Source of the DNA: Bradyrhizobium sp. 186
GTDB taxonomy: Bacteria > Pseudomonadota > Alphaproteobacteria > Rhizobiales > Xanthobacteraceae
DNA: 64,000 nucleotides
Reading direction: 5' to 3'
Assembly: GCF_023101685.1 (NCBI RefSeq)
Contig: NZ_CP082164.1
Coordinates: 3,472,001 to 3,536,000, forward strand
Positions 2,112 through 9,134 of this stretch are shown here, piece after piece (the stretch's first letter is position 1; each line of letters starts with the position of its first letter). The notes beneath the pieces were generated by a model. That model did not search any database. It was not told the DNA's origin and saw nothing but the letters and a program-made list of their open reading frames with translations. The position numbers and the translations under genes were made by a program.

Positions 2112-2216
2112 TCTTGCTACGTAAAGTTCCGGAGGAAGCTCACGATCACTTGAGACGAATCGCGACTTGCGGTAGTATTGTTACGTTGCAGGAAAGTTAT
2201 TTTCGACAACGTCTGA

Positions 2217-2253
2217 GTTCCGCGTCGTTGCAGTCTTGAGGAGAACGCGGAAC
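2217..2253 (+). promoter_or_regulatory. 9-bp inverted repeat around the parA ribosome binding site
   Basis: GTTCCGCGT (2217-2225) and ACGCGGAAC (2245-2253) are perfect inverted copies, and the second arm ends at the base before the parA ATG. The Shine-Dalgarno-like GAGGAG lies in the 19-base spacer. The arrangement is repeated exactly upstream of the broken second parA copy. It could be an operator bound by ParA or a partner, or an RNA hairpin that controls translation. Confidence 0.65.
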
Positions 2254-2916
2254 ATGTACGTCCTTGCTCTGGTCACGCAGAAAGGCGGAAGCGGTAAGAG
2301 TACGCTGTCCGTTGGATTGGCAGTGGCAGCGATGCAGCGTGGAGAACGTGTCGCTCTCGTTGAAGCGGACGCGCAAGGCACGATCTCGAAATGGAAAGAG
2401 CGGCGAGCTGCTCCCTATCCTCGCGTCGATTGCGTTGCCGATCCCGCCGAAGTCGAGCCGGTGATATCCCGCCTCCAGGCCGAAGGGGTCTGGCTCGCAA
2501 TCATCGACACAGCCGCCACGAACAATGCCTTGGCGACGCGCGCCATTGCCAGTGCCGATCTTTGTCTCATCCCGGCTCGTCCGAGCCCGGCCGATATCGA
2601 AGCCGCAATACCTACGCTGATCGCTATTCGCAGGCTCAATCGCCGGTTTGCCTTCATCCTCAATCAGACGCCCACGCGGGGTTGCCGGCTGGGCGAAGCT
2701 GCCACGTCGCTCAACTCGCTCGGCGTGCTTGCGCTCCCCTTCATTGGGCAGCGTAACGACCACCAGGATGCGCTCGGGGCAGGGCTGGGCGTGACCGAGT
2801 TCGCGCCGGAGGGAAAAGCCTCGGAGGAAATTGTGGCCCTGTGGGGTTGGATCTCGGAGCGCCTTATCGTGGAGTCGAATGATCATGGGCAAGCCACGCT
2901 CAAGACCGCCTGCTGA
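2254..2916 (+). CDS. Orphan ParA-family partition ATPase
   Basis: A 220-residue P-loop ATPase of the ParA/MinD superfamily. The deviant Walker A motif is KGGSGKST near residue 10, the A' motif is VEADAQGT near residue 41, and Walker B is LAIIDTA near residue 82. The small size and lack of an N-terminal helix-turn-helix resemble ParF/type Ib or cargo-positioning ParA proteins. Family members bind DNA non-specifically as ATP dimers and are driven off by a partner protein, which moves the partner's cargo. No ParB gene is nearby. The next gene starts inside parA (38-base overlap) and encodes a phasin-domain protein with a basic N-terminus, the likely partner. The ATG is preferred over an in-frame start at 2236 because GAGGAG sits 8 bases upstream. 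Confidence 0.9.
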   Translation: MYVLALVTQKGGSGKSTLSVGLAVAAMQRGERVALVEADAQGTISKWKERRAAPYPRVDCVADPAEVEPVISRLQAEGVWLAIIDTAATNNALATRAIASADLCLIPARPSPADIEAAIPTLIAIRRLNRRFAFILNQTPTRGCRLGEAATSLNSLGVLALPFIGQRNDHQDALGAGLGVTEFAPEGKASEEIVALWGWISERLIVESNDHGQATLKTAC

Positions 2917-3526
2917 CGTTGCCCGCACCAGGCGTCGCTCGCTGGTGCAGCTGACGGCGGACGTGGGCCGTGCCGTCGACGAGGGCTTGGCGATGCCCCC
3001 GGGCTCGGTCACCGTCTTCCTCCCAGATGCGCCGCAGATCGCGCAAGCAGCGCCTGCTCCGATGACCGTTCCGGCACAGGAAGCGGCCAGCGTCATCGTT
3101 GCAAGACCTGAACCTCCGAGCAGCACCACCACCGATCTCATCGTGGACATGGCCAAGGATTTTCAGGCCCGTGCTTTGGACGGCATGAAGGCTGGTGCTC
3201 ACGCTGCGCTGGATTATGCCAAGGACCTCGCCAAGCCACGGCCAGCCGGTGGGACATCGGAGGCCGGAGAAGCCGCCGCCGCGGACAGCCACCTCATCGA
3301 GGCGATTGGAACGGCAGCTGAGTGTCGCGCCGTCGTGCTCGAACTGATGAAAGTGAATGCGGGCGCCACCCTGGAGTATGCGCGGGAGTTGGGCTGTGCA
3401 AGAACGCTGGCGGAATTGGTTGAGCTGTCGAGCACGCATGCGCGAAAGCAATGTGAGTTGGTCCTGAAGCAAACCGAGTTGCTGAGATTGCTTGCTCAAA
3501 ACATGACAAAACCCGGTGCCAGGTAG
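2879..3526 (+). CDS. Phasin-domain protein, putative ParA partner
   Basis: A 215-residue protein in three parts. Residues 1-30 are basic (RTRRRS motif), residues ~35-75 are Pro/Ala-rich, and the remainder is helical. The C-terminal ~80 residues resemble the phasin family, which coats polyhydroxyalkanoate granules: an alternating Ala/Glu/Leu helix (ATLEYARELG) followed by a second helix (HARKQCELVLKQTELL). The start overlaps parA by 38 bases, which implies translational coupling. A second possible ATG lies at 2885. An Arg-rich N-terminus is typical of proteins that stimulate ParA ATPases (ParB, McdB). I infer that this protein links ParA to a granule or another phasin-coated cargo. The family assignment comes from sequence pattern only. 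Confidence 0.75.
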   Translation: MIMGKPRSRPPADVARTRRRSLVQLTADVGRAVDEGLAMPPGSVTVFLPDAPQIAQAAPAPMTVPAQEAASVIVARPEPPSSTTTDLIVDMAKDFQARALDGMKAGAHAALDYAKDLAKPRPAGGTSEAGEAAAADSHLIEAIGTAAECRAVVLELMKVNAGATLEYARELGCARTLAELVELSSTHARKQCELVLKQTELLRLLAQNMTKPGAR

Positions 3527-3551
3527 CGCCGCTCGCCTGCCGTCATCGCGC

Positions 3552-3686
3552 TCAGGATCTGCGCGGGACAATCAGGGTGAGTCCGAGATCGATCGCAAGC
3601 CCACCACCCCCGCGCCACCGCCGAGCCCGAACAGGATCAGATAGTCGCCGCCGCTCTGAGCGAACAGCCAGGAGAAGCCATAGGAG
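3552..3686 (-). pseudogene. Duplicated 3' tail of MFS transporter gene
   Basis: Matches the end of the complete MFS gene at 7902-8034 almost base for base, including the stop codon (TCA on the plus strand at 3552-3554). It lacks one base near 3600 and breaks off at about 3686, where the second parA upstream region begins. It is a by-product of the tandem duplication and cannot encode a protein. Confidence 0.85.
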
Positions 3687-3765
3687 GCTCACGATCGCTT
3701 TTGACTAATCGCGACTTACGTTAGTATTTTTGCGTTGCAGGAAAGTTATTCTCGACCACGTCTGA

Positions 3766-3802
3766 GTTCCGCGTCGCTGCAGTCTTCAGGAGAACGCGGA
3801 AC
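3766..3802 (+). promoter_or_regulatory. Second copy of the 9-bp inverted repeat before parA'
   Basis: GTTCCGCGT (3766-3774) and ACGCGGAAC (3794-3802) flank the same spacer length as in copy 1, directly before the ATG. Both arms are unchanged although the spacer and flanks have diverged. Confidence 0.6.
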
Positions 3803-4033
3803 ATGTATGTGCTTGCCCTGGTCACGCAGAGGGGCGGAAGCGGTAAGAGTACGCTGTCCGTTGGATTGGCAGTGGCAGTGGCAGCGTGCAGCGTGGAGAA
3901 CGTGTCGCTCTCGTTGAAGCGGACGCGCAAGGCATGAACTCGAAATGGAAAGAGCGGCGAGCTGGTCCCTATCCTCGCGTCGATTGTTGCCGATCCCGCC
4001 GAAGTCGAGCCGGTGACAATCCCGCCTCCAGGC
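3803..4033 (+). pseudogene. parA fragment (5' end, frameshifted)
   Basis: Begins like the intact parA (TQRGGSGKST Walker A). A 6-base expansion of GTGGCA plus a 1-base loss then shifts the frame after about 30 codons, and a further 2-base loss follows near 3985. The remaining two thirds of the gene are missing. No functional ATPase can be made. Confidence 0.88.
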
Positions 4034-7434: not shown

Positions 7435-7876
7435 GGCCAGCGTCATCGTTGCAAGACCTGAACCTCCGAGCAGCACCACCACCGATCTCATCGTGGACAT
7501 GGCCAAGGATTTTCAGGGCCGTGCTTTGGACGGCATGAAGGCTGGTGCTCACGCTGCGCTGGATTATGCCAAGGACCTCGCCAAGCCACGGCCAGCCGGT
7601 GGGACATCGGAGGCCGGAGGAGCCGCCGCCGCGGACAGCCACCTCATCGAGGCGATTGGAACGGCAGCTGAGTGTCGCGCCGTCGTGCTCGAACTGATGA
7701 AAGTGAATGCGGGCGCGACCCTGGAGTATGCGCGGGAGTTGGGCGGTGCGAGAACGCTGGCGGAATTGGTTGAGCTGTCGAGCACGCATGCGCGAAAGCA
7801 ATGTGAGTTGGTCCTGAAGCAAACCGAGTTGCTGAGATTGCTTGCTCAAAACATGACAAAACCCGGTGCCAGGTAG
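7435..7876 (+). pseudogene. Phasin-domain gene fragment (5' truncated, domain frame intact)
   Basis: The last ~147 codons of the phasin-domain gene, including the whole helical domain, are preserved in frame to the stop at 7874-7876. The basic N-terminus and Pro/Ala linker are gone. Differences from copy 1 are substitutions only. A GTG at 7493 and an ATG at 7499 could start a ~126-residue domain-only protein, but no clear ribosome site precedes them. It is either a recent remnant or a small phasin without the ParA-facing tail. Confidence 0.75.
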
Positions 7877-8034
7877 CGCCGCTCGCCTGCCGTCATCGCG
7901 CTCAGGATCGGCGCGGGACAATCAGGGTGAGCCCGAGATCGATCGCAAGCGCCACCACCCCCGCGCCACCGCCGAGCCCGAACAGGATCAGATAGTCGCC
8001 GCCGCTCTGAGCGAACAACCAGGAGAAGCCATAG
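7435..8034 (+). repeat. Duplication unit, copy 2, right piece
   Basis: Matches 3085-3686 with few substitutions. There is no length change through the phasin part (441 bases to the stop in both copies) and a 1-base difference in the MFS tail. It begins abruptly at GGCCAGCG. Confidence 0.9.
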
Positions 8035-9134
8035 GCGGCGGCCGCCTGGAACAGCGCGAAGCTGGTGGTGGCGTGGCTCCAGGTGGCGCGCTGCTCGATG
8101 CTGTGTGGGACGAGCTCGTGGATGCGTCCGAGCACCAGCGGCACGACGCCGGGGGTGAAGCCGCCGACGACCACGCTGGACACGATCAGCGAAGCCGGTG
8201 CGGTGCTCACGGTGGGCAGCAGCACGGCAGCCGCCTCGATCAGGAAGGCCGCGCGTAACGCCGGTCCAAATCCGGCGCGATCGCCGAAATGGCCGGTGAC
8301 GAGCGGGCCGACGATTGCGCCGAGGCCGTACAGCACCCAGTAGCGCGATCCCGCGGCGATGCCCTGGCCGAGGCCGCGCGCGACGAAATCGACGATGAAG
8401 ACCATGTGCGGCACCAGCGCCACCGCATTGAGGCCGTACTGGATCAGCAGCGCGCTGATCGCCTTCGACGCATGACCGTGTTGCGCGCGATGGGGTGTAG
8501 GCGCGACATCACCCTTCGCGTCCGCAGGCCAGTTCCACCAGCTCGCCAGCGTCAGCAGACCGGCGAGAACGCCGAGGCCGTACCAGCTTTGCTGCAAGCC
8601 CTGTTGCAGCAGCAGCGGCACCAGCGTGCCCGATGCCGCGACGCCGAGACCGACGCCCGCAAAGATCACGCCGCCGATGATGCCGCGCTTGGCGGGCGAG
8701 GTGTACGGCAGCACGACGGACGCCGCCAGCACCATGATGATTCCGCCGGTAAGGCCGGCGATGAAGCGCCATGCAAAGAACCAGCCGAAGGATACGGGGG
8801 CTGAGCTGGCGAAGAAGGAGAGGGTCGCGAGCAGCATCATCGCGCGCAACGAGTAGACCGTGCCGATGTGGGCCGCCACGGCCCGCGCGGCGAGCGCCCC
8901 GGCGAGATAGCCGGCCAGGTTCGCAGCGCCGAGATAAACGACGTCGGATGCACTGAACCACTTGGCCGCAATCAACGCCGGGATCAGCGGCGTGTAGGAA
9001 AAGCGGGCAAGGCCGAGTCCGACAAGCGATGCCGACAATCCCGCCACCGCATACCGCCAGGTCGATTGTGAAGTCGATCCCGGCCGCTGACGCGGCCGGG
9101 CGTGGTGCTTGGCATCTGCATTGAGTTCGGTCAT
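7902..9134 (-). CDS. YbfB/YjiJ-family MFS transporter
   Basis: A 410-residue inner-membrane protein with about twelve hydrophobic helices and the GLGLARFSYTPLIPAL opening typical of the YbfB/YjiJ (UPF0226) group of the major facilitator superfamily. The substrate is unknown for this group. The ATG at 9134 was chosen because the upstream part of the frame is shadow of the next gene. It lies 19 bases after the SDR gene on the same strand and probably shares its transcript, opposite a divergent LysR gene. Its 3' 130 bases are also present at 3552-3686 as part of the duplicated unit. Confidence 0.85.
   Translation of the reverse strand: MTELNADAKHHARPRQRPGSTSQSTWRYAVAGLSASLVGLGLARFSYTPLIPALIAAKWFSASDVVYLGAANLAGYLAGALAARAVAAHIGTVYSLRAMMLLATLSFFASSAPVSFGWFFAWRFIAGLTGGIIMVLAASVVLPYTSPAKRGIIGGVIFAGVGLGVAASGTLVPLLLQQGLQQSWYGLGVLAGLLTLASWWNWPADAKGDVAPTPHRAQHGHASKAISALLIQYGLNAVALVPHMVFIVDFVARGLGQGIAAGSRYWVLYGLGAIVGPLVTGHFGDRAGFGPALRAAFLIEAAAVLLPTVSTAPASLIVSSVVVGGFTPGVVPLVLGRIHELVPHSIEQRATWSHATTSFALFQAAAAYGFSWLFAQSGGDYLILFGLGGGAGVVALAIDLGLTLIVPRRS

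Follow-up and report, generated by a model that had tools for sequence, protein, structure and literature searches.

The locus described here raises the question of why a ParA-type ATPase should be encoded in one overlapping unit with a protein that ends in a phasin-like domain, and what such a pair would do in the cell. The two genes lie near the beginning of the window, which is the whole stretch of 64,000 nucleotides from Bradyrhizobium sp. 186 that was analyzed. A sequence-only reading had proposed that they form a granule-positioning system. Our best reading of the sequences, which we regard as on balance probable, is that they make up a module of two genes that positions a cargo in the manner of ParA/MinD systems, the cargo being PHB granules. 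The features on which the argument depends are listed below.

2150..2178, + strand: promoter-like element, TTGAGA, 17 bases, TAGTAT (from the sequence; pattern shared with the main-clade loci)
2182..2190, + strand: place of a PhaR-operator-like core, where the window reads TACGTTGCA, one half-site base off TGCN3GCA
2254..2916, + strand: parA-type ATPase gene, 220 aa, P0001, from ATG 2254 to stop 2916 (profile matches; alignment of 75 relatives)
2885..3526, + strand: partner gene, 213 aa from ATG 2885 (215 aa from ATG 2879), overlapping parA by 32 (38) bases
2912..2992, + strand: basic N-terminal helix with RRSLVQLT, the proposed ParA-facing tag (alignments A1 and A3; predicted helices)
3326..3484, + strand: Phasin_2 match, residues 148-200 counted from ATG 2885, the proposed granule-binding domain (Pfam; profile comparison)
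3682..4033, + strand: 5' part of a broken second copy (promoter and start of parA), 91.0% identical to 2133-2480
7435..8039, + strand: 3' part of the broken second copy (phasin half and tail of the neighboring MFS gene), 98.3% identical to 3085-3688

The ATPase and its partner

The product of the first gene had been described from its sequence as a small ParA, and this description holds. The 220-residue protein contains the deviant Walker A motif with the signature lysine, KGGxGK[S/T], in the form KGGSGKST, and each residue of this motif is kept in at least 95% of the 75 aligned ParA rows, which include the broken genes L089 and L126. P0001 scores above the Pfam cut-offs for the VirC1, CbiA, AAA_31, MipZ, and ParA models, and it misses the equivalog cut-off of the NCBIfam model ParA_partition (NF041546), with 136.9 bits against 180. 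The nearest solved chains are 5u1g (named ParA, E 1.4e-13) and 4dzz (ParF, E 1.8e-13). A second, remoter ParA (~52% identity) is found at G000:C1:175004-175639 (L072 4897-5697, minus strand), near genes read as mutM, ubiE, and ubiB and with no tag-bearing partner adjoining. ParA genes like this remote one are frequent in the match list for the genus.

The partner may begin at either of two ATG codons. ATG 2885 is kept in 52 of 74 partners versus 23 of 74 for ATG 2879, and it is preferred as the start because it is better kept among the relatives. The 38-base overlap originally given for the two genes is correct when counted from ATG 2879, and the better-kept start reduces it to 32 bases. The arginine-rich N-terminus, also pointed out in the sequence-only reading, is real and conserved. 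R17, R18, and S19 occur without exception in the 33 rows of A1 and in the 16 rows of A3, which covers both partner types. These residues come after the stretch shared with parA, and the overlap therefore does not account for their conservation.

The AlphaFold2 model of the window partner is weak overall (mean pLDDT 62.7). It places helices at residues 10-17 and 20-36, where residues 21-30 reach a mean pLDDT of 85, followed by a low-confidence stretch at residues 39-77 that is taken to be a linker, and a helical C-terminal half. A fold search with the model of the phasin-type partner returned helical bundles, none of them at E 0.001. When the window's own genome was searched for other tag-bearing proteins, the best remaining match had an E value of 0.19. 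In five phasin-type partners (L059, L062, L063, L094, and L095) the linker contains basic repeats of the ARKTPA type, which presumably resemble histone H1-like tails. When the A1 members were compared with NCBIfam at E 0.01, 4 of the 33 matched the Rv3852 family, which we take to be histone-like, and 1 of the 33 matched the Hc2 family (H1-like).

The C-terminal domain had been called phasin-like, and the comparison of whole families bears this out. Alignment A1 consists of the 33 of 44 phasin-type partners that were scanned for Phasin_2, and all 33 match both Phasin_2 (best E 3.9e-8) and the NCBIfam phasin model TIGR01985 (best E 1.2e-13) at E 0.01. A profile built from 16 phasins of three Bradyrhizobium genomes aligns with A1 at 98% probability and E 1.5e-13 over residues 142-211, with 14% identity. 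Direct matches between single sequences were obtained with PhaP2 (40%, E 6e-9) and PhaP4 (33%, E 1e-8) of USDA110; of these, PhaP4 has been reported to have the highest affinity for PHB in vitro (PMC6201568). The curated cut-offs give a divided answer to the HMM search that had been suggested as a check on the phasin assignment. The window partner barely passes the cut-off of Pfam Phasin_2 (PF09361), with 25.0 bits against 24.9, and it is far below the equivalog cut-off of TIGR01985, with 43.9 bits against 99.7. The translated genome search gives the same Phasin_2 copy 23.3 bits, under the cut-off, and three of the four other phasin-type proteins that were scored individually also fall below the gathering cut-off. 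The only DNA-binding Pfam match among the A1 members is to HC2, in 1 of 33.

Conservation of the pair and exchange of the C-terminus

The ParA-partner pair is conserved in Bradyrhizobium. Among 265 genomes of the genus there are at least 76 close ParA loci in 64 genomes, these being the matches listed at 73% identity or above, from which fragments may be missing. All 76 loci were read. A partner frame follows parA in 74 of them; in the other two (L125 and L126) parA is truncated and no partner is present. In 70 of the 74, the partner's ATG falls within the last part of parA. The characters by which McdAB-like systems are recognized are adjacency of the ATPase and its partner and a basic N-terminal tag on the latter; the adjacency was found at 74 of the 76 loci, and 73 of the 74 partners have the motif RRS[LI] among their first 60 residues. 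One partner at the start of a contig and without its ParA (L097) was left out of these counts.

The partners are of two types. Forty-four, in 44 genomes, are phasin-type, which is defined here as a partner without the long-type end and includes one frameshifted gene (L101) and one cut by a contig end (L096). The other 30, in 29 genomes, are long-type, and nine genomes have both. Purifying selection was found in the 10 pairs that were computed (nine phasin-type and one long-type), with dN/dS values of 0.08-0.34 for parA and 0.32-0.55 for the partner. An FMO gene precedes parA in all five of the loci that were read in a wide window (the present one included) and in 13 of a further 15 phasin-type loci, with one genome belonging to both sets. 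It was not found at the three long-type loci and the one divergent phasin-type locus that were also examined. The distribution is patchy. Since the phasin-type pair occurs in only 44 of the 265 genomes among the matches listed, the genus does not need it.

The long-type partners (for example L079, L113, and L099) keep the RRSL tag and end in a domain of ~166 residues. This C-terminus is 93-99% identical among the 120 listed of its 221 relatives, and it has no match to a Pfam family. Alignment A2 contains 15 of the 30 long-type partners, and the structure prediction for this type was unusable (mean pLDDT 35.7). In a maximum-likelihood tree of 68 ParA rows, from which L089, L126, and identical rows were left out and in which two more distant paralogues served as the outgroup, the long type forms one clade with support of 97/85 inside the phasin type. 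This nesting indicates a single exchange of the C-terminus in which the tag was kept. We propose from these sequences that the partner is built like an adaptor, one end being a tag that faces ParA and the other an exchangeable cargo end.

The two genes had also been said to be duplicated together. A duplication is seen in the window, and its second copy is broken, so that one whole pair is left. The two parts of the broken copy are separated by ~3.4 kb of other DNA that includes a GT87 gene, and the simplest reading of the arrangement is a tandem duplication of about 2133-3688. The broken copy retains an intact operator core, TGCGTTGCA at 3731-3739, unlike the working copy with its TACGTTGCA, and the Phasin_2 domain of the 3' part (7435..8039) scores 30.7 bits. 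The parts differ in their identity to the first copy (91.0% versus 98.3%), and they may accordingly differ in age, or one may have been overwritten by the first copy.

A survey of genomes for conserved adjacency of parA and the phasin gene had been suggested as a further check. Within Bradyrhizobium the adjacency stands at 74 of the 76 loci, and all other occurrences that the searches detected are in MAGs of the same family, one of which (G099; L013/L158) belongs to another genus. Profile A3 of the N-terminal tag matched 14 of 297 genomes of the order at E 0.01; the three strong matches come from Bradyrhizobium, and no ParA lies within 1.5 kb of any of the 12 weak loci, which are in the remaining 11 genomes. 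At E 1e-8, A1 matched two of 190 genomes of the class, the window's own and one in which the match (query 93-223) is without the tag part. The profile searches of order, class, and genus scored the best 11-25 candidates per genome, and the absence beyond the genus is for this reason not strong.

The same question was approached from the phasin side. Of 62 phasin-match loci examined with flanks of 1.5 kb, five have a ParA, and all five belong to the ParA-partner clade described here. In another genus of the same family, the flanking 1.5 kb of phasin genes with a long upstream frame contain no ParA. Phasin_2 matches were present in 41 of 67 genomes of the class, and the 29 new loci returned were scanned with the profile of the ParA clade, giving one match. 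This lone match was read as MipZ, divergent from the phasin gene, and is held to be unrelated. At that locus (L229 2-1839) it is the phasin gene that is followed by frames read as clpS and clpA.

The upstream region and the USDA110 counterpart

A promoter-like pattern, TTGA[GC]-N18-TAG, lies upstream of parA in 35 of 35 main-clade phasin-type loci, a set that was chosen after the alignment had been viewed and that leaves out L126 and nine divergent phasin-type loci. In USDA110, PhaR has been reported to repress phasin genes through sites with the consensus TGCRNYGCASMA (PMC6201568). The core TGCN3GCA was found in 25 of the 44 phasin-type loci, all 25 of them among the 35 main-clade loci and none among the phasin-type loci outside that clade. 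It is located at -56 to -73, 2-4 bases behind the -10-like hexamer, and it is the commonest of the 64 palindromes of that form in the 35 loci, the runner-up being present in 14 of 35. Its frequency in the 64-kb window is 0.073 per 130 bases. Among the long-type loci it occurs in 0 of 30 within 130 bases and in 10 of 30 within 250 bases, at -183 to -249. One upstream set of 45 phasin-side loci includes L126. L056 and L058 are examples of loci whose promoters carry an almost perfect operator.

The bases of the core are 80-97% conserved and two of the three spacer bases 51%, and the flanks are also well conserved in places. Since the flanks are partly conserved and the loci are related, the enrichment of TGCN3GCA is support rather than proof. 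A scan of the USDA110 promoters found the core in phaP1 (two sites), phaP4, and phaP5, and did not find it at phaP2, phaP3, or phaP6. The gene phaP6 is reported to be repressed by PhaR and yet is without the core, and TGCN3GCA is therefore no sure predictor. PhaR is encoded in the genome of the window, and the operator-like sites are a possible additional, independent link of the pair to PHB.

The published work on USDA110 can be applied to the pair through genome G174. Seven of the nine Phasin_2 matches in this genome fit the seven published USDA110 phasin tags by order and strand, with two weak ones left over, and by this fit the USDA110 partner is bll5940, the predicted phasin PhaP7. The six other mapped phasins have no ParA within 1.5 kb. 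According to the accessible text of one study (PMC10888616), phaP1, phaP4, phaP5, and phaP6 are repressed by PhaR in microoxic cells and phaP7 is not among them; phaP7 is moderately transcribed, with low signal, in microoxic culture; and isolated granules contained PhaP1-3 and not PhaP7. The 2018 PhaR study (PMC6201568) mentions neither bll5940 nor bll5941 in its main text, and a 2013 study, in its accessible text, set aside three of seven Phasin_2 genes as less reliable (PMC4029623). The published USDA110 work gives no support for an association of PhaP7 with granules or for its repression by PhaR.

The statement that no described two-gene module of ParA and a phasin was known agrees with our search of the literature, which found no description, with most subscription papers and supplements outside its reach. 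The whole word ParA is missing from the main text of PMC10888616, which contains bll5940, and from the main texts of PMC5658603 (a phasin review), PMC3783465 (a granule proteome), and PMC9049629 (a review). In the accessible text of PMC6414705, ParA is treated for chromosomes, and PHB granules are described as excluded by PopZ.

Proposed function and related systems

In the proposed mechanism, the ParA dimer with bound ATP would bind to the nucleoid, and the partner would sit on PHB granules by means of its C-terminal phasin domain. The basic N-terminal helix of the partner would then touch ParA, stimulating the hydrolysis of ATP and the release of ParA. The granules would follow the resulting ParA gradient, be spread over the nucleoid, and be shared at division. 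At the loci that bear the core, PHB would draw the repressor PhaR off the promoter site, and the operon would thus be expressed at times of PHB formation. It has been reported that partners of ParA/MinD ATPases contact the ATPase by a charged N-terminus while the remainder serves the cargo (PMC10241942, PMC12204374). The more detailed picture, a dedicated, energy-driven positioning of PHB granules by ParA and a PHB-induced phasin adaptor that kept its tag and exchanged its cargo domain once for that of another cargo, is plausible, if a little short of probable.

The pair could instead position a cargo other than PHB, such as a protein cluster or another inclusion, with the phasin-like helices acting as an oligomerizing or surface-binding module. 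The long type, in which the N-terminal tag is followed by another C-terminus, presumably for a cargo of its own, is in keeping with this, as are the weakness of the phasin match by curated cut-offs and the report that PhaP7 was not found on granules (PMC10888616, in its accessible text). The profile match to Bradyrhizobium phasins and the restriction of promoter-near operator cores to phasin-type loci argue for PHB, however, and we consider another cargo unlikely. It is also conceivable that the partner acts chiefly as a phasin, controlling granule size or tying granules to DNA, and that ParA serves it as a switch or anchor without active positioning. PhaF, PhaM, and PhaH are reported to tether granules to DNA without ParA (PMC13052382), and the linker repeats of the five partners, together with the matches to Rv3852 (4 of 33) and Hc2 (1 of 33), would suit such a function. 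A mere anchor would hardly need the Walker A motif that is kept in at least 95% of 75 ParA rows, and we regard this second alternative as distinctly improbable.

The unit might, finally, be left over from the partition system of a plasmid or island, in which case the partner would be a centromere-binding protein and its likeness to phasins would be due to chance. A relic would fit with the presence of plasmid ParF among the closest solved chains of ParA, with the broken state of the second copy, and with the patchy distribution of the unit in the genus. The chromosomal neighborhood is nevertheless the same in relatives, as judged by the FMO gene (all five wide loci and 13 of the 15 further phasin-type ones), and Phasin_2 is matched by 33 of 33 partners whereas the sole DNA-binding Pfam match, HC2, is found in 1 of 33. 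We regard such an origin as very improbable.

The reading that we prefer, a module that positions PHB granules, can be compared with several known systems. The ParF-ParG system of plasmid TP228 is similar in that ParF (4dzz) is among the nearest solved chains to the window ParA. ParG has a flexible basic N-terminus and binds the plasmid centromere; in the partner, a phasin domain stands in place of the centromere-binding part. The McdA-McdB system for carboxysome positioning likewise pairs an ATPase of the ParA type with a protein whose N-terminus is basic and whose other part binds the cargo, and in H. neapolitanus the first 20 residues of McdB have been reported to suffice for contact with McdA (PMC12204374, preprint). 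The likeness is one of form, and the cargo end of the present module is a phasin, with the PHB granule as the expected cargo. PhaM, PhaF, and PhaH are also granule-bound proteins that are linked to the nucleoid, but they are reported to bind DNA themselves and to have no homology to ParA (PMC13052382), whereas the link in the module would run through ParA. Within Bradyrhizobium, PhaP7 (bll5940) is, judged by gene order and strand, the USDA110 member of the partner family and is in this respect set apart from the six other mapped PhaP phasins.

A 2025 review left open whether the localization of PHB granules needs energy, as the positioning of carboxysomes does, and considered an analogous system possible (PMC13052382, in its accessible text). 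The module described here is a concrete candidate for energy-driven granule positioning in USDA110, an organism in which PHB, phasins, and PhaR have already been studied. The long-type partner, in which the tag is joined to a different C-terminus, suggests that there is a further cargo and may be used as a natural tag-swap system.
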